A DNA stretch of 64,000 bases from an uncultured Campylobacterales bacterium (GTDB taxonomy: Bacteria; Campylobacterota; Campylobacteria; Campylobacterales; Arcobacteraceae), in NCBI GenBank assembly GCA_947494995.1, contig CANLWY010000001.1, forward strand, positions 496,001 through 560,000, written 5' to 3'. A program made the position numbers and the translations under genes. This document shows positions 50,309 through 64,000 of the stretch, in pieces. The notes beneath the pieces are model-generated. The model was not told where the DNA came from. It saw only the letters and a program-made list of their open reading frames with translations, and made no database searches. Numbering within the stretch: position 1 is the first letter of the stretch; each line of letters starts with the position of its first letter.

Positions 50309-50704
50309 CTACCATTTTCTTACTATAGAATGGCATCTAGCACAGGCATTTAGCATATCTGAGTATGCATTTGCTGCATTAATATAAGCTTTTTCATCTA
50401 AATTTAATTCTAAGACATTTACATCTAAACTAATTCTTTTTGCTGCATTTTCAGCTACATTTACCATATGTTTTTTATCTGCTGGTAAATAAGTAGCAAT
50501 TACTTTTTTATCAGAGAATAGATTATTTCCTTGATCTACAAGTTTAGAACCACTTCTAATTAATTCAATGTTATTATTTAGAAAACCTTGTTGAATCTGA
50601 GTCATCCCTTGTTCCATCATCGACATTGATTTCTTTAAAACATCTTCTGCTTTTGCTGCTCCAATAATTAAACAACATGCTAATAAAATCTTCCCAAATT
50701 TCAT
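50309..50704 (-). CDS. Cytochrome c'-like periplasmic heme protein
   Basis: A 131-residue protein with a signal peptide (about 1-19, ending Ala-Lys-Ala), a helical body and a single heme motif CARCH close to the C-terminus, followed by 'SIVRKW'. A C-terminal CXXCH in a small all-helical protein is the layout of class II cytochromes (c' or c556). Such proteins bind NO or carry electrons. It is transcribed alone, between rsmE and the bc1 operon, with an AGGAG site before the ATG. Confidence 0.78.
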   Translation of the reverse strand: MKFGKILLACCLIIGAAKAEDVLKKSMSMMEQGMTQIQQGFLNNNIELIRSGSKLVDQGNNLFSDKKVIATYLPADKKHMVNVAENAAKRISLDVNVLELNLDEKAYINAANAYSDMLNACARCHSIVRKW

Positions 50705-56113: not shown

Positions 56114-57940
56114 TTATTTTAGTAGAGTTCTATCAAATCTAATTACTTTATTTCTTCCTGACTTTTTTGCTTTATAAAGGGCTAAGTCAGCATACTTTAT
56201 GCATTCATTTAAATCTTCACTATCTTTTGAGAACATTGATACTCCAATACTCATTGTTTTCATGATAATAGTTTTCCCTCCTGTGGGAATCTCTTTTTTA
56301 GAAAAGTTAATTCTAATCTTTTCTGCAATATTTAGAATATAATCTTCATCACAGTTATATAGAAGAATCATAAACTCTTCTCCTCCATATCTAACAGCAA
56401 CATCTGATTCTCTAATGTTATCTTTTAGAGTTTGGGCTACTACCTTAATCGCATTATCACCTATATCATGTCCATAGGTATCATTAATCATTTTAAAATA
56501 GTCTATATCACATAATAAAATACCATAAGGTGTATTTGTTCTTTGTGCTTGAGATGTTATTTTAACTATTGAGTCTTCTAGGTATTTTCTGTTTTTAAGT
56601 CCTGTAAGAGCGTCTGTTTGTGCATTATATTCTAATATTGCCATAAGTTTTTTACTAACAATTACAGTTTTTGCAGCATCAACATAGTCTTGAATATAAG
56701 GAATCATCTTTTTTACTTTTAAAGTTTGAACTTTATCCCGTGCATAGATTGATATAACTAAATCAATCTCATTTGAAATAGAATAAGGAATACAAAAATA
56801 GTTTAAATCATCACAATTTTTACAAGCACTACATATATTTTTAAATTGAGTAGAGTCTATTGCAGTATTTGTTTTATCTGCTCGGCAACCCTCTTCAAAT
56901 ATATTACATAAAACTTCAATATTTGAATAAACATTTTTAATTTCACCAGTATTAGTATTTGTTTCAAAAAAGTTAAATTCACTAATATCAAGTTTTAATA
57001 TAAGTATTTGGGCAAGTCTTATATATATTTCATCAACAGTTTCATCGTATTCTATAGTCTTTCTAAATTTATATATATCAGAGAGTCTCTCTATAGTATT
57101 TTTTACATTTATTAAATGATCTTTATCTTCAACTTTTTGATTCTCAGAAAGAAAAATTGATATTTTTGAGTCAATTGCATCAAGTGTGACCTCAAGTTTT
57201 TCTAATAAACCATTAATCCATAATGATACATCTTTGGCCTCTTTACCTTTAGTCTCTTTTATTCTATAAGAGTAATCTCCTTGTTGAGCTTTATTCATAA
57301 CTTTTTTAATAGAGTCAAAAAGAGATAAAAAAGGTGAAATAATATAGTTTAAAATTATAGTGATTAATACCATTAAAATAAGGGCAATAAGAATAGTATT
57401 AGATGCAGTTTTTATACCAATTTGTTTTGAATCATCAATTGACATAGTGATTGTAATAGCTCCTAAAGTGTCACCTTCACTAGCATTTGTGTGACAGGAC
57501 ATACAATCAATTTTTCCTTTTCTTGTAGCTTTATAAGGAATTGTAATTCTATAAGTACTTTGTGAGAATAAGTTATCATTTATTACTTTTTTTGCTTCAC
57601 CTGTTCTTAGCACTTCTAAATCAATTTCATCTTGTGCACTCTCTTTTGAAAGTCCTTTTCCATACATTTCAATAACTTTATGACCTCGACTTAACCAAAT
57701 ATCATCAATATTTGGGATATCTTCAAGTTGACTTAAAAAGAGTTCTCTATCTTCAATAACACCTGTTACCATTAGAGAAGTTAACGAGTGTTCAACAGTT
57801 CTTGAAATTGCTTGAGCTTTATCATCAATTGATTTAACTCCATAAGCTCTAAAGTTATAAGCCATTTCAACAGTAATAATTATAAACATAAAAGATATTA
57901 TAGAAATAACTAGTAAAATAATTTTATTCTTCGTTTTCAT
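56114..57940 (-). CDS. Heme-tagged membrane diguanylate cyclase (GGDEF)
   Basis: This 608-residue protein makes c-di-GMP. It has a transmembrane helix (about 7-28), a periplasmic domain ending with CMSCH (C146, C149, H150), a second helix (about 178-200), a HAMP-like linker, a GAF-like cytoplasmic region with six cysteines (C-x6-C-x17-C-x2-C-x2-C-x6-C), and a C-terminal GGDEF domain. The active loop is GGEEF (about 519), with the inhibitory I-site RESD nine residues ahead, so it should be an active and product-inhibited enzyme. The covalent heme suggests redox or gas sensing. It is monocistronic and divergent from addA. Confidence 0.88.
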   Translation of the reverse strand: MKTKNKIILLVISIISFMFIIITVEMAYNFRAYGVKSIDDKAQAISRTVEHSLTSLMVTGVIEDRELFLSQLEDIPNIDDIWLSRGHKVIEMYGKGLSKESAQDEIDLEVLRTGEAKKVINDNLFSQSTYRITIPYKATRKGKIDCMSCHTNASEGDTLGAITITMSIDDSKQIGIKTASNTILIALILMVLITIILNYIISPFLSLFDSIKKVMNKAQQGDYSYRIKETKGKEAKDVSLWINGLLEKLEVTLDAIDSKISIFLSENQKVEDKDHLINVKNTIERLSDIYKFRKTIEYDETVDEIYIRLAQILILKLDISEFNFFETNTNTGEIKNVYSNIEVLCNIFEEGCRADKTNTAIDSTQFKNICSACKNCDDLNYFCIPYSISNEIDLVISIYARDKVQTLKVKKMIPYIQDYVDAAKTVIVSKKLMAILEYNAQTDALTGLKNRKYLEDSIVKITSQAQRTNTPYGILLCDIDYFKMINDTYGHDIGDNAIKVVAQTLKDNIRESDVAVRYGGEEFMILLYNCDEDYILNIAEKIRINFSKKEIPTGGKTIIMKTMSIGVSMFSKDSEDLNECIKYADLALYKAKKSGRNKVIRFDRTLLK

Positions 57941-57967
57941 GGGGTCTCTTTAATGATTGTTATTAGA

Positions 57968-57982
57968 TATAATCTTATTATA
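57968..57982. promoter_or_regulatory. Promoter region between the diguanylate cyclase and addA
   Basis: TATAAT on the minus strand at 57977-57982 suits the cyclase; TATAAT on the plus strand at 57968-57973 could serve addA. The two overlap closely in a 96-base AT-rich gap. Confidence 0.4.
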
Positions 57983-58060
57983 ACAAAAAAATATCAATAT
58001 AAAATTATATTTGTAAATAAATATAGTTAATCCTAAATGATAATTATGTATTATTTCAAT

Positions 58061-60799
58061 ATGAAACATAATTTAGCCTTGAAAGCCAGTGCAGGAAGCG
58101 GAAAAACTTTTGCACTTACCGTTCGATATATTAGTCTGCTTCTTTTAGGTGCAAAACCAAAAGAGATATTAACATTAACCTTTACAAATAAAGCTGCAAA
58201 TGAGATGAGTGAAAGAATCTTTAAAACACTTCAGAGTTTGGGAGATGATGAAGCTTATTTAATAGAAATTATAAAACAATCGGGTATTTCTAGAGAACAA
58301 GTATTGTATAAAAAAGAGAGAATTCTTAGTGATTTTACAAATTCAACACTATCTATTTTTACTATAGATAAATTTGTTAATAAAATTTTGCGTGAGTTTT
58401 GTGGATATATAGGTATAAGTGATGATTTTGAAATAAAAGAGGATGATATAGAGGCTTTAAGTGTGAAATTTTTAGAGTCTTTATCTTTAGATGAATTTGA
58501 TAAACTTATTGATTTTCAAATATATGAAAAGAAAAAATATTCGTCTTTATTTGATATTTTTAAAAATTTACTTGAAAAAAATGAAAAATGTGAAATTTTA
58601 AATATTGATGCATCTTTAATTAATCTTCAAAAAGAAGAAGCTTTGAAATGGGCATATAAAATAAAAGAACATATATTAAATTGTCCAAATGCTTCTGCAA
58701 CAGCAAAAAAAGCAGTATCTTTTGATTCTTTTGATGAATTATTAGATAAAGGAAAAACTTGGCTTACAAAAGATGTTGCAAGTGATTCTAGAGATTTTAA
58801 AAAGTGCTCAAATGAAGTCTTTGAAACTTACTTTTTAAATTTAAAAGAACAAATTACAATATATTATAAAATTAGGGCAGGATTTTCTTTAAGTAGGCTT
58901 TTTGAACTTTATACACTTTTTAAAAATTATAAAATCAAGTTTAATAAATCAAAAAACTATCTTCATTTTGATGATATTTCAAATCTAACTTTTGAGTTGT
59001 TATCAACAAAAATTGATAAAGAGTTTTTATATTTTAGATTAGATTCAAAGTTTTCACATATTTTAATTGATGAATTTCAAGATACTTCCCTTTTACAATA
59101 TAAAATTTTACAGCCTTTAATAGAAGAGATTTTAGCTGGATCAAACAATGAGTTTAAGAGCTTTTTTTATGTAGGAGATACAAAACAGTCTATATATAGA
59201 TTTAGAGGAGGGAAGAGAGAACTTTTTGATTATGTATTAAGAACCAATCCTCAAGTAGAAGTAGAGGTTTTAAATACAAATTATAGGTCTTGCGAAAAGA
59301 TAGTAAATTTTGTAAACGATTCTTTTTTGCCTCTTTCAAATTATGAATACTATAATCAAGAAGCAAAAGAAGAGGGTGGGTATATTGAAGTTTTTGAAGA
59401 TGAGGCTTTAGCAAGTGAAGAGAAGTATGAAAATATTGCAAAAAAAATATCATTACTTTTACAAAATGGAGTAAATAGTAATGATATAGCTATTTTAACC
59501 TATACAAATGAAGATGTTTTAAATATCTATTCATATTTAAAAAAGATGTTTCCAAGTTTAAAAATTACAACAGAAATGACATCTAAATTAATTAACCAAG
59601 AGAATGTGAAAGCAGTTATAAATGGTATAAAATACTTATATTTTAAAGAAGAGTTGTATAAAGAGAATTTAAATGCAATTATTGGAAAAGAACCTAATTC
59701 AGATTTGGAGTTAAGTGTAGATATTAAAAACTTAACTGTTCAAGAGATAGTTTATAAGCTTGCAAATATTTTAAAGGTTATGGATGACAATGTTATAAAG
59801 TTAATTGAAATTTGTAGCACATTTAAAAATATTGTTGATTTTGTTTATGAGATTGATAAATCAGAGGCATCAATTCAGAATTCAGAACAAATTGGATTAC
59901 AGATTTTAACAATTTTTAAATCAAAAGGTTTAGAGTTTCATACTGTTCTACTTCTTGATAGAATTAAGCAAAAAAATGCAGATAGAAGTTCTTTACTTTT
60001 TGAGTATGATGAAGTACATCTAAAAAATATATATTATAAAATTTCAAAACTTGAAAATTATAATGAGGATTATAAAAATGCTTTAAATAAAGAGAAAGCT
60101 CTAAGTTTAGAAGATGAGTTAAATATTCTTTATGTTGCAATGACAAGAGCAAAAAACAATATGATAATCTTTAAGAAAAAAGAGAAGTCCGTTTTTGATT
60201 TAATCTCTTTGGAACTTCAAACTTTAGGTGAAATAGTAAAGAGTAAAAACCAGTCTAAAAACTATGAAAAAATAGATAAAGTAACTTATCTTCCTCTTGA
60301 TTTAGGAAGACAAGATAAACCAATATCCAAAGAACAAGATGATAAAGAGTATTCTTTACATTCAAGATATTTTGGAATAGCTACACACTATTGTTTAGAG
60401 ATGATGAATGAATTTAATCAAGACTCTTTAGAGTATGCTATTAATTTAGTAATAAATAGGTTCTCAAACTATTTATCTGAAAATGACTTTAAAAATATTA
60501 AAAAAAGAGTTTTATATTTACTTGAAAATAAAGAGTTTCAAAATATAGTAAATAATGCTAATTTAAATAAAGAGCAGTCTTTGATATATAAAAATGAATT
60601 AAAAATTATTGATTTATTAGTAGAAAAAGATAACAAATACTATATTTTTGATTATAAAACTACAAAAGAAGAGATTCATGAACATAGTTTTCAGGTTGAA
60701 CATTATAAGAATGCAATAAAAGAGATAGTAAATAGTAATGAAGTATATTCATACATAATCTATTTAAAGGAGAATGAAACTACATTAAAAATAGTGTAG
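58061..60799 (+). CDS. addA: AddA-like UvrD-family helicase-nuclease
   Basis: A 912-residue RecB/AddA-type protein. Helicase motifs are Walker A 'KASAGSGKTFALTVRY' at the N-terminus, 'ILIDEFQDTS', 'GDTKQSIYRFRGG' and 'LYVAMTRAKNNM'. The C-terminal nuclease has 'IIDLLVEKDNKYYIFDYKTT', giving D and D-Y-K of the PD-(D/E)XK fold. It would work with the AddB-type protein encoded at 10.2 kb. No ribosome site is obvious; the ATG at 58061 is chosen because it puts the Walker A close to the N-terminus, but ATGs at 58037 and 58046 are also in frame. Confidence 0.83.
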   Translation: MKHNLALKASAGSGKTFALTVRYISLLLLGAKPKEILTLTFTNKAANEMSERIFKTLQSLGDDEAYLIEIIKQSGISREQVLYKKERILSDFTNSTLSIFTIDKFVNKILREFCGYIGISDDFEIKEDDIEALSVKFLESLSLDEFDKLIDFQIYEKKKYSSLFDIFKNLLEKNEKCEILNIDASLINLQKEEALKWAYKIKEHILNCPNASATAKKAVSFDSFDELLDKGKTWLTKDVASDSRDFKKCSNEVFETYFLNLKEQITIYYKIRAGFSLSRLFELYTLFKNYKIKFNKSKNYLHFDDISNLTFELLSTKIDKEFLYFRLDSKFSHILIDEFQDTSLLQYKILQPLIEEILAGSNNEFKSFFYVGDTKQSIYRFRGGKRELFDYVLRTNPQVEVEVLNTNYRSCEKIVNFVNDSFLPLSNYEYYNQEAKEEGGYIEVFEDEALASEEKYENIAKKISLLLQNGVNSNDIAILTYTNEDVLNIYSYLKKMFPSLKITTEMTSKLINQENVKAVINGIKYLYFKEELYKENLNAIIGKEPNSDLELSVDIKNLTVQEIVYKLANILKVMDDNVIKLIEICSTFKNIVDFVYEIDKSEASIQNSEQIGLQILTIFKSKGLEFHTVLLLDRIKQKNADRSSLLFEYDEVHLKNIYYKISKLENYNEDYKNALNKEKALSLEDELNILYVAMTRAKNNMIIFKKKEKSVFDLISLELQTLGEIVKSKNQSKNYEKIDKVTYLPLDLGRQDKPISKEQDDKEYSLHSRYFGIATHYCLEMMNEFNQDSLEYAINLVINRFSNYLSENDFKNIKKRVLYLLENKEFQNIVNNANLNKEQSLIYKNELKIIDLLVEKDNKYYIFDYKTTKEEIHEHSFQVEHYKNAIKEIVNSNEVYSYIIYLKENETTLKIV

Positions 60800-60807
60800 T
60801 TTTATTG

Positions 60808-62316
60808 TTAAATATTTTTTTCTAAAGCTGAAATAGAATCTATATCATTTTTAGTTATATTAATTTCTTTATATGTAAGAGAAACTTCTTTAGAGTAAAG
60901 GTTTATAAACTCTTTAAGTTCATTATATTTATCTACTTCAAAAGCCTTATTATTATGGTTTATTAAGGCATAGTCATCTCCATGAATTCTAAATATTGTA
61001 AATTCATTAAATAGTTCAGAAATTTTTTCGGATATTTGAACTAAAAATTCATTTCCTTTTGCCCATGAAAATCTTTTATTATATTTAGAGAAGTCTTCTA
61101 AAAATATAATATATATTTTCTCAAACTTTTTATCAAAAGCATTTTTTGAAAGAGTAACATTTAAATATTTTTCATTAAAAATATTTGTTAAAGGGTCTTT
61201 ATAAAAATATGAGAATCTTTCTTGTTCAAGTTTGTTTTGAGGAAGCTGTGTGATTGTATCATCTATTTCTATATTAGTTAAAACTTTTAATGATGCATCA
61301 ACAATCTCCTTTTTAAAATGTATGTTTGAAAGAGAAGATATTTCTTGAAGGGCTTCATCAATACTCTTTCGTGCTCTATATATTCTACTAGTAGTCATGG
61401 CATCAAATGAGTCTGCAAGAGCCATTATATTTGCTTTAAAAGGGATTTCCTCACCTTTTAAGCCAGAAGGATAACCTGATCCATCAATTCTTTCATGATG
61501 ACAATTAATAACCTGAGCAATTTCCTTAAACATAGGGATTTGAGATAACATATTAAATCCTATATTAACATGCTCTTTTATTAAATTATATTCATTTAAT
61601 GATAATTTTCCAGGTTTTAATAAAAGAGAATCTGGAATTGCTATTTTGCCAATGTCATGTAGAATTCCTGCTCTATATATCTCATCACACTCTTTTTTTG
61701 AGAAGTTTAATTCTTGGGCTATAAGTTTTGAATAGTTTGCAACTCTTAAACTATGTTTTCCTGTGTATGTGTCACGACTTTCAATTATATCTATTAAAGC
61801 ATAGAGTGTTTTTTCATAATTATCAATTTTTTCAAGTGAAAGTTTTAAATTGTCTTTATTCTTTTCTTTTAAAAGTTTTTCAAGATTTCTTTCATAAATA
61901 TCATGTTCTTTAAATTTTTTTACTTTTGTCATAATTTTAAATAGTGTTGTATTCAAGTTATCATAATCAATAGGTTTTAAAATATATCCATCTACACCAA
62001 TTTTTATAGAACTAATAAATTTCTCTGAATCAGAATATGCTGAGGTAATAAGAATATTTTGTTCCTCGTTAATCTCTTTAATTTTAGAAGCCATAGTAAT
62101 GCCATCCATAATTGGCATTTTTACATCTGTGATGATAAGATCAAAACTCTCTTTTTTATAAGTGTCAAGTGCAGCTTGTCCATTGTTTCTATAAACAACT
62201 TTAAAAAAAATCTTTTCTAAATAATTTTTAAATGTATAAGCAATATTTTCATCATCTTCTACATAAAGTACAGAACAATTAGAAGCTAAGCTTTTTAATT
62301 CACTTATTTTGTACAT
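60808..62316 (-). CDS. Response regulator with HD-GYP phosphodiesterase and degenerate GGDEF domains
   Basis: The 502-residue protein has a receiver domain (phospho-acceptor D64 in 'IITDVKMPIMDG', lysine in 'YILKPID'), an HD-GYP domain (H188, H220-D221 in 'LHDIGK', H249, H273-H274 and 'DGSGYPSGLKG'), and a C-terminal GGDEF-like domain whose loop reads H-G-D-D-Y and is probably inactive. HD-GYP enzymes hydrolyse c-di-GMP. Phosphorylation at D64 should switch activity. It is divergent, 78 bases away, from a heme-tagged histidine kinase, its likely partner. The 3' end is only eight bases from the end of addA. Confidence 0.88.
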   Translation of the reverse strand: MYKISELKSLASNCSVLYVEDDENIAYTFKNYLEKIFFKVVYRNNGQAALDTYKKESFDLIITDVKMPIMDGITMASKIKEINEEQNILITSAYSDSEKFISSIKIGVDGYILKPIDYDNLNTTLFKIMTKVKKFKEHDIYERNLEKLLKEKNKDNLKLSLEKIDNYEKTLYALIDIIESRDTYTGKHSLRVANYSKLIAQELNFSKKECDEIYRAGILHDIGKIAIPDSLLLKPGKLSLNEYNLIKEHVNIGFNMLSQIPMFKEIAQVINCHHERIDGSGYPSGLKGEEIPFKANIMALADSFDAMTTSRIYRARKSIDEALQEISSLSNIHFKKEIVDASLKVLTNIEIDDTITQLPQNKLEQERFSYFYKDPLTNIFNEKYLNVTLSKNAFDKKFEKIYIIFLEDFSKYNKRFSWAKGNEFLVQISEKISELFNEFTIFRIHGDDYALINHNNKAFEVDKYNELKEFINLYSKEVSLTYKEINITKNDIDSISALEKNI

Positions 62317-62358
62317 TTAGTTCCTTTATATGAACTTGTATCTTTCTTGTAATTGTAA

Positions 62359-62364
62359 TATAAT
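62359..62364 (+). promoter_or_regulatory. -10 box of the sensor kinase
   Basis: TATAAT on the plus strand, about 30 bases before the kinase ATG, in the 78-base divergent gap with the HD-GYP regulator gene. Confidence 0.45.
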
Positions 62365-62394
62365 AATATTGAAAAATAATATAAAGAAGTAAAT

Positions 62395-64000
62395 ATGAAT
62401 AGGTTAAGGGTCTTTTTAATTATAATATTTGGACTTGTTACTTGTTCAATGTTTGTTATTTATACTATAGATAAAAATACTAAAAGTAGCGAAAATTTTC
62501 TTAAAAATATGATTAAAAATGAAGCGAATTCATATTACAAAAATATTGTAGAAGCAAGAAAATGGAACTCGATACATGGTGGAGTATATGTAAAAAAGAA
62601 TGCTAATTTAAAAAGTAGTGAGAATTTAAAAGATGAATATCTTTATACAAGTGATGGAGAAGTATTAGTAAAAATCAATCCATCATTAATGATAAGACAA
62701 ATATCTGAAATCTCAAATAAATTAAATGATAATTTTTTTAAAATTACAAGTTTAAATCCATTAAATTCTATAAATGCACCTGATGATTTTGAAAGAAGAG
62801 GATTATTCTACTTTAATAAAAATAAAGAAGAAAATATCTACACTGAATATTCTAAAAACTTGTCAGAGTTTAATTTTATTGGTTCCTTAAAAGTTTCAGA
62901 ATCATGTCTCTCTTGTCATAGAAATCAAGATTTTAAATTAGGTGAAATTAGAGGTGGCATTCGAGTCTCAATTCCTACAAAAAAATATTATCAAAATCTT
63001 GAAGAGATTAAAGAAAAAAATAGAACAATTATATTTATAATTATTGTAGGAACCATGGCTTTAATTCTTGGATTTAAATTTATTCTTGATAAATTAGATG
63101 AAAATAGTGATGAAATAGAAAAAAACTTAGAAAATATCAAACAACTAAAAGATCAAAAAGAGTTATTGTTACTTAGATATGAATATGCAATAGAAGGAAC
63201 AAAGGATGGTTTGTGGGATTGGAATTTAGAGACAAACAGTGTTTTTTATTCTAAAAACTGGAAAAATATGCTTGGATATAAAAATCATGAAATTGAAAAC
63301 AAATTTGAAGAATGGGATAAAAGAGTTCATCCTGATGATAAAGAACAAGCTATAAAAGATATAGAGAATAATCATAAGAAGCTTACTAGTTTTTATCAAA
63401 ATATTCATAGAATGAAACATAAAAATGGAACATGGGTATGGATTTTAGATAGAGGAAAAACTTACTTTAATGAAAATGGTGAGCCATATAGAATGGTTGG
63501 TTTTCATTCAGATATAACAGAGCTTAAAAACCTAGAAATAAGTTTAAAAAAGACAAAAAATGAATTAACAGAGTTTAAGTTTATAATTGAAAGTGCCCCA
63601 ATTACTATAATGATTACAGATATAAATGGGGATATAACATACGTAAATCCACATTTTACAGAGATTACAGGATATGAAAAAAATGAAGTTATAGGAAAAA
63701 AGCCTAAGGTTCTTAGATTTAATGAACATAAAAATAAAGAAGATGATGAAAAATATAAAAGTTTATGGCGTACAATCTTAGATAAAAAAACCTGGGGAGG
63801 TATTTTTAGAAATAGGAAAAAGAATGGTTCTGAATATTGGGAAACCGCAACAATTTTACCTATATTAAATAATAGAGGTGAGATACAAAACTATTTAGGA
63901 ATTAAAAGAGAAATTACTAAAGAACTTTTCTTAGAGAAGCAGTTAAAAGAGAAAGAAGAACTAATGTTAGCTCAGTCAAAAAATGCTGCAATGGGTGAAA
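62395..64000 (+). CDS. Heme-tagged PAS sensor histidine kinase (partial, runs off the window)
   Basis: An open frame starts at the ATG at 62395 and continues without a stop to the window edge (at least 535 codons). The protein has a transmembrane helix (about 5-25), a periplasmic DUF3365/Tll0287-like domain with CLSCH (C171, C174, H175), a second helix (about 210-230), then two PAS domains: 'DGLWDWNLETN...GYKNHEIE' and 'ESAPITIMITDINGD...GYEKNEVIGK', the first PAS_3-like. The visible end 'LMLAQSKNAAMGE' is the usual lead into a HisKA domain of the 'AxMGEM' type. It is divergent from the HD-GYP response regulator, so likely its cognate kinase. The catalytic part is outside the window. Confidence 0.82.
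   Translation, partial: MNRLRVFLIIIFGLVTCSMFVIYTIDKNTKSSENFLKNMIKNEANSYYKNIVEARKWNSIHGGVYVKKNANLKSSENLKDEYLYTSDGEVLVKINPSLMIRQISEISNKLNDNFFKITSLNPLNSINAPDDFERRGLFYFNKNKEENIYTEYSKNLSEFNFIGSLKVSESCLSCHRNQDFKLGEIRGGIRVSIPTKKYYQNLEEIKEKNRTIIFIIIVGTMALILGFKFILDKLDENSDEIEKNLENIKQLKDQKELLLLRYEYAIEGTKDGLWDWNLETNSVFYSKNWKNMLGYKNHEIENKFEEWDKRVHPDDKEQAIKDIENNHKKLTSFYQNIHRMKHKNGTWVWILDRGKTYFNENGEPYRMVGFHSDITELKNLEISLKKTKNELTEFKFIIESAPITIMITDINGDITYVNPHFTEITGYEKNEVIGKKPKVLRFNEHKNKEDDEKYKSLWRTILDKKTWGGIFRNRKKNGSEYWETATILPILNNRGEIQNYLGIKREITKELFLEKQLKEKEELMLAQSKNAAMGE

Follow-up and report, generated by a model that had tools for sequence, protein, structure and literature searches.

The sCache_heme proteins, equated with the DUF3365/Tll0287 (PF11845) family in the available part of the preprint of Deshpande et al. 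(2026), combine a periplasmic Cache fold and a CxxCH motif (99% conserved) with kinases, methyl-accepting chemotaxis proteins (MCPs) and GGDEF enzymes, and are enriched in Campylobacterota (PMC12889525). A membrane signalling protein of this family binds nitric oxide (NO) and has NO-sensor properties (PMC12889525). As far as the available part of the literature on the Geobacter heme MCP sensors extends, the heme ligands of GSU0935 are His144 and Met60, the methionine being lost upon oxidation and replaced by CO or NO (PMC8396549). The description of cyclic di-GMP (c-di-GMP) enzymes with periplasmic c-type heme sensors is only now under way. Here we analyse a stretch of 64,000 nucleotides (the window) from an uncultured Campylobacterales bacterium of the Arcobacteraceae (GCA_947494995.1, contig CANLWY010000001.1, positions 496,001 to 560,000). 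It encodes, within 8 kb, a GGDEF protein with a periplasmic CMSCH motif, an HD-GYP response regulator and a PAS kinase with a CLSCH motif, all recovered by motif and Pfam searches where the initial annotation had placed them. These genes probably represent two independent sensory units: a dual-cofactor diguanylate cyclase (DGC), with a c-type heme and a GAF domain carrying four cysteines (Cys4), and a separate two-component cassette of patchy distribution. The analysis draws on sequence, fold prediction, conservation and synteny.

The cyclase and its parts occupy the following positions of the window:
56114..57940, minus strand: DGC of 608 amino acids (aa), composed of a transmembrane segment (TM), a putative periplasmic c-heme Cache-like sensor, a second TM, a HAMP-like linker, the Cys4 GAF domain and a GGDEF domain (Pfam, models, hydropathy, alignments)
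57401..57862, minus strand: periplasmic sensor with a Cache fold, aa 27-180 (model pLDDT 88.9, pTM 0.84)
57770..57772, minus strand: Met57, the predicted distal heme ligand (alignment; analogy with Met60/His144 of GSU0935)
57491..57505, minus strand: CMSCH heme-attachment motif, C146, C149 and H150 (motif search, alignments)
56645..57157, minus strand: GAF-fold domain, aa 262-432, without Pfam match (model of aa 255-436, pLDDT 87.2)
56792..56908, minus strand: Cys4 segment, C345, C352, C370 and C383, with C373 and C376 also present in this protein (alignments)
56147..56623, minus strand: GGDEF domain, aa 440-598 (Pfam E 1.8e-48), with GGEEF at 56372-56386

The CMSCH motif of the DGC lies between two hydrophobic segments (TM 3-30 and TM 174-211, from hydropathy). 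The sensor model resembles WalK (7dud, VIA Z 11.8) and the heme protein Tll0287 (5b82, VIA Z 9.9), and its CxxCH (model residues 120-124) precedes the last strand (132-141), so that it shows the Cache fold with CxxCH typical of sCache_heme. Structures of GSU0582 and GSU0935 were not among the fold matches listed for this model. The DUF3365/Tll0287-like label proposed in the initial annotation holds for the kinase sensor, which exceeds the PF11845 cut-off (66.9 bits vs 24.1, E 3.4e-18) in a protein that also matches PAS domains, and fails for the DGC sensor, which matches no Pfam family at E<=1. Among 70 aligned members of the DGC sensor, PF11845 weakly matches 22 (best E 0.019) and the PF21563 profile, the one considered for the GSU0582/GSU0935 (class 40H) heme sensors, matches 11 (best E 1.6e-6), with no PF21563 match to the window sequence. 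Its predicted fold marks the sensor of the DGC as a diverged relative of the sCache_heme (Tll0287-like) family.

Wide searches covered Campylobacterota, and the named loci derive from the best 80 of 238 confirmed matches (79 loci). CxxCH is found in all 148 aligned DGC rows (duplicates, the same genome under two names, being kept) and in 139/152 members of the widest non-identical set, and it is present in all eight Tll0287 domains of this genome. As proposed earlier, both the DGC and the kinase sensors are very probably covalent-heme domains. The position of Met57 is occupied by methionine in 145 of the 146 aligned rows having a residue there. Met57 and His150 are predicted to be the heme ligand pair of the DGC because those of GSU0935 are His144 and Met60; the Met-to-His spacing is 84 in GSU0935 and 93 in the DGC, and CxxCH is common to GSU0582, GSU0935 and the DGC (PMC8396549, PMC3460858). 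The Geobacter proteins differ in having a chemotaxis output instead of the predicted c-di-GMP synthesis, and a Cys4 GAF domain is not described for them in the available parts of these two papers (PMC8396549, PMC3460858).

The GAF domain sits between the HAMP-like linker and the GGDEF domain and was overlooked in the initial annotation. Its fold assignment is based on a model that superimposes on the GAF domain of Lcd1 (5w10) with VIA Z 12.5 and a root-mean-square deviation of 3.4 over 154 aligned residues (Foldseek E 9.4e-4). No Pfam family matched the window domain; the scattered matches obtained, none of them shared by more than 4 of 71 members, were taken as chance and a Pfam assignment was rejected. 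Sequence searches of the PDB, run with individual domains or with profiles, yielded nothing meaningful, and the plasmid records searched for the Cys4 domain contained no match. The GAF-domain profile matches 81 of 298 Campylobacterota genomes, in 33 of 58 genera; six of the 81 belong to f2, where five scored copies lack Cys4 and one (L241) is unscorable, and part of the remaining 75 were inspected individually.

The four core cysteines are invariant in 39/39 sequences (the window plus 38 sequences taken from the 82 other matches in the DGC search of the family genomes). They are complete in 136 of 144 non-identical sequences; seven lack C345 only, six of them having another cysteine within 371-382, and one has none of the four. 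When nine more distant relatives are included and the L241 row, whose match spans 44 aa, is dropped, 152 segments can be scored: at least four cysteines occur in 146, three in one (L226) and at most one in five. This nearly all-or-none loss suggests that the four cysteines work as a single site. In the same set, 135 copies combine CxxCH and Cys4, 11 have Cys4 without CxxCH (seven short forms of family f5 and four with an unrelated sensor in f10), three have CxxCH with at most one cysteine, one has CxxCH with three, and two have neither. Since the two features occur separately, the heme motif and the Cys4 domain are, at the sequence level, distinct modules, gained and lost independently. Natural heme-only (L231, L238, L240), Cys4-only (L215-type, L230-type) and neither-type variants allow comparison.

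The GGEEF motif is accompanied by an RxxD I-site by sequence reading, and GEEF is present in all 145 rows having residues there. With its GG(D/E)EF motif intact, the window protein is a plausible diguanylate cyclase. Five of the 135 copies with both Cys4 and CxxCH lack a GG(D/E)(D/E)F string, four as a result of contig-end cuts, the fifth (L229) being full-size. GAF-domain cyclase genes also occur as close pairs on opposite strands in G187 (L206), G229 (L207, L229) and G267; the second copy of G229 is the L229 protein without GG(D/E)(D/E)F.

The first unit would thus be a membrane-bound diguanylate cyclase whose family is widespread in Campylobacterota. Its periplasmic Cache domain would hold a c-type heme on CMSCH, ligated by His150 and, by analogy with GSU0935, Met57, which would leave upon oxidation or be displaced by NO or CO. 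The ligand change may pass through the second TM and the HAMP-like linker to the cytoplasmic GAF domain. There, the four cysteines would hold a second centre that responds to redox state or metal, most likely an iron-sulfur (Fe-S) cluster, adding an intracellular input. The two inputs together may set GGDEF dimerisation and c-di-GMP synthesis; the signal itself and the direction of the response are conjectural. The stricter proposal of a two-sided redox comparator, in which one protein couples a switchable periplasmic c-type heme and a cytoplasmic Fe-S GAF domain to c-di-GMP output, is somewhat unlikely. Should the Cys4 GAF domain prove to be a cofactor site, a single protein would connect periplasmic and cytoplasmic conditions with lifestyle in many respiratory Campylobacterota.

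A precedent for the cytoplasmic half is provided by Chloroplast Sensor Kinase/Hik2, whose GAF domain is implicated in binding an Fe-S cluster that reads the redox state of plastoquinone; in contrast to the present case, this GAF domain belongs to a kinase and not to a GGDEF enzyme, and in the available part of the source one cysteine is shown as a [3Fe-4S] ligand (PMC6949291). Among the literature matches listed, no title or abstract opening described Fe-S control of a DGC, or a DGC whose GAF domain is of the Cys4 or Fe-S type. The terms 'iron-sulfur', 'Fe-S' and 'c-type' do not occur in the available text of a 2022 sensory review (PMC8846402), nor do GAF, Fe-S, iron-sulfur or methionine in the available main text of PMC12889525. 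The pairing of a c-type heme with an Fe-S GAF domain in one c-di-GMP enzyme was not found in the c-di-GMP sensor review or in the portions of the literature searched.

The remaining genes, among them a helicase gene passed over in the initial annotation, are arranged as follows:
58037..60799, plus strand: UvrD/RecB-like helicase of 920 aa, located between the signalling genes; a habitual neighbour of the DGC in relatives, outside the system (Pfam, synteny)
60808..62316, minus strand: response regulator with REC, HD-GYP and C-terminal degenerate GGDEF domains (Pfam, motif reading)
62395..63999, plus strand, with a further 665 bases beyond the window: histidine kinase with a Tll0287-like putative c-heme sensor, two PAS domains, HisKA and HATPase (Pfam, frame extension)
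62905..62919, plus strand: CLSCH heme-attachment motif of the kinase, C171, C174 and H175 (motif search, hydropathy)

The full kinase (756 aa, L009:1396-3666) includes an HQWRQP motif, HisKA and HATPase_c, and its CLSCH lies between TM 1-27 and TM 208-234 (hydropathy). The HD-GYP regulator matches Response_reg, HD_5 (E 4.6e-42, 144.1 bits vs 27.2) and, weakly, a second GGDEF (1.8e-6). It retains the HD and HHERIDGSGYP motifs and is a plausible phosphodiesterase. Its C-terminal GGDEF is degenerate (RIHGDDYA instead of RxGGDEF), is covered by the near full-length relatives and may be a nucleotide-binding regulatory domain. Kinase and HD-GYP genes are divergent, 78 bp apart; beyond the window, 3' of the kinase and convergent with it, lies a gene for a REC-PAS-coil regulator whose first 170 residues share 51% identity with the corresponding part of the HD-GYP regulator. 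These three genes, located between the helicase gene and thiE, would form the second unit, in which the predicted c-heme kinase would most likely act as phosphodonor for the regulators on either side of it. From adjacency, the pairing of kinase and HD-GYP regulator is plausible. Among described systems, the available part of PMC8846402 reports that HnoX-HnoK-HnoB of Shewanella similarly uses an NO-linked kinase to steer a REC-type c-di-GMP phosphodiesterase, with a separate H-NOX sensor where the heme is here predicted in the kinase itself, on the periplasmic side. The NosR-family REC-HD-GYP regulators (NF053512) share both domains with the window regulator (206.7 bits across two stretches), which does not reach the curated cut-off of 400 bits and has the extra C-terminal degenerate GGDEF. 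In L074, L083 and L065, the kinases beside HD-GYP relatives bear sensors that include substrate-binding-protein folds and dCache_3.

The strands of the DGC, helicase, HD-GYP and kinase genes alternate (minus, plus, minus, plus), and with the helicase gene intervening the three signalling genes do not share an operon. The initial annotation had interpreted them as one circuit, in which the same periplasmic signal drives synthesis of c-di-GMP by the DGC and its breakdown by the kinase/HD-GYP pair, their closeness reflecting joint function. CxxCH in both sensors, the location of the genes inside 8 kb and the same arrangement in G019 favour this view. Each gene was searched against the same 61 genomes (its own and 60 of the family). 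DGC-like proteins occur in 46 (E<=1e-90, other paralogue groups included), and near full-length relatives of the HD-GYP regulator (E<=1e-70) and of the kinase (E<=1e-110, with G009 as two pieces of one frame) in six each. All three are present in four genomes (G000, the window's own, G019, G009 and G035) and clustered in two, G000 and G019; conservation of the set across the family is therefore not observed, and a circuit argued from conserved clustering was rejected. In G009 the cassette genes occupy another location and in G035 they are dispersed; the neighbours of the heme kinase in G008, G014 and G035 are other regulators. Twenty loci were fetched, 13 of them DGC-centred. The DGC lies inside an argB/helicase/thiE block in 12 of the 13, and in 11 of these 12 syntenic loci the helicase gene abuts thiE without the cassette, G019 being the exception. 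Since the DGC is commonly present without the cassette and the HD-GYP gene occurs elsewhere with other kinases, the locus usually houses the DGC, and the cassette was, most simply, added to it here and not lost elsewhere. The genome lists contain 39 GGDEF, 11 HD-GYP (stops interrupt some of these frames) and eight Tll0287 loci, with four GGDEF-HD-GYP pairs within 8 kb. With uniform placement, 88% of simulations contain at least one such pair and 6% at least one GGDEF-HD-GYP-Tll0287 triple within the same distance, estimates that are low if signalling genes cluster. The closeness of the genes by itself says little, and a single circuit is distinctly improbable.

The reading of two units, with a second cofactor in the cyclase, has to be set against several observations. 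L226 retains CxxCH with three cysteines, and 7 of 20 copies in a more distant fetch lack CxxCH. Relatives were gathered by profiles containing the cysteines and the named loci with a pattern including Met57, so that Cys-poor and Met-poor forms are under-counted. The kinase-regulator pairing is based on adjacency, and HD-GYP relatives elsewhere adjoin kinases with other sensors. GAF folds of similar Z include the free methionine sulfoxide reductases 1vhm (which we take to be MsrC/YebR; Z 12.1), 3mmh (11.7) and 3ksf (11.2). As in these free Met-(R)-sulfoxide reductases, the cysteines could form a thiol-disulfide switch or a binding site for an oxidised metabolite, for instance methionine sulfoxide, and Cys 66, 76 and 100 of E. 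coli MsrC fall near C345, C352 and C370 in an alignment made by eye, which does not amount to a test. When E. coli MsrC was compared with the family profile by hhalign, no sequence support emerged for this explanation, which is quite unlikely. Four-cysteine sites are often zinc sites, and conservation of the cysteines nearly as a set would also fit a structural zinc site that leaves the heme as sole sensor. In five relatives the cysteine set is gone and the GGDEF motif kept, which is odd for a needed structural metal although not decisive; a structural zinc site is unlikely. We infer that the Cys4 sensor is best read as an Fe-S, zinc or thiol centre. For the CxxCH sensors, a response to periplasmic redox potential or respiratory flux and not to NO has a little less than an even chance. 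The predicted Met57/His150 pair resembles that of GSU0935, and the potentials of GSU0582 and GSU0935 (-156/-251 mV) and the redox-linked switch of the methionine ligand, in the available part of the source, agree with redox sensing (PMC8396549). Against it stand the NO-sensor properties of the membrane signalling sCache_heme member (PMC12889525) and NO binding by GSU0582 and GSU0935 too (PMC8396549), as reported in the available parts of both sources. The redox and NO readings overlap.

The DGC gene lies 67 bp upstream of argB and shares its strand with argB, thrC, the bc1 genes and a gene for a small CARCH protein (gene names by inspection). The proximity of the bc1 genes had been advanced as support for a respiratory link. 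This support is weak: among the 79 named loci, 16 have argB close to the DGC, all with DGCs at least 54% identical to that of the window (contig ends cut some loci), and the bc1-adjacent block also contains argB, thrC and thiE. Linkage to bc1 persists where closer relatives have the argB block but was not observed in the remaining named loci, and it was rejected as functional evidence. The CARCH protein (50309-50704, minus strand; 131 aa, secreted-looking, with a C-terminal CARCH) appears cytochrome c'-like by eye and has no Pfam match at E 0.01; its gene stays next to petC in relatives.

The genome comprises 3.17 Mb in 31 contigs. In the window, the pattern TGY-N6-TGY-CAY occurs 13 times, against 2.7 expected from shuffling (highest shuffle, 7). 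The genome contains three long ResB-domain frames of CcsBA size and a 538-aa cd1-type nitrite-reductase-like frame, so that heme attachment and NO are plausible. Two further MCPs of the same genome (L011:2987-5173 and L012:3751-5709) have CLLCH in their sensors and were matched by the DGC search; judged by their motifs, c-heme-type sensors in this genome feed chemotaxis, kinase and cyclase outputs. Outside the window (L013:3859-8339, contig C1 at ~960.9-965.3 kb), a 661-aa MCP frame with a TTG start carries two CxxCH motifs (CKECH and CIVCH); its sensor was not found in the other 60 family genomes searched. The frame shares 8 bp with the small-subunit gene of a [NiFe] hydrogenase, which directly follows the gene for the large subunit. 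All three have the same orientation, and the MCP is possibly a hydrogen-taxis receptor within the hydrogenase operon.

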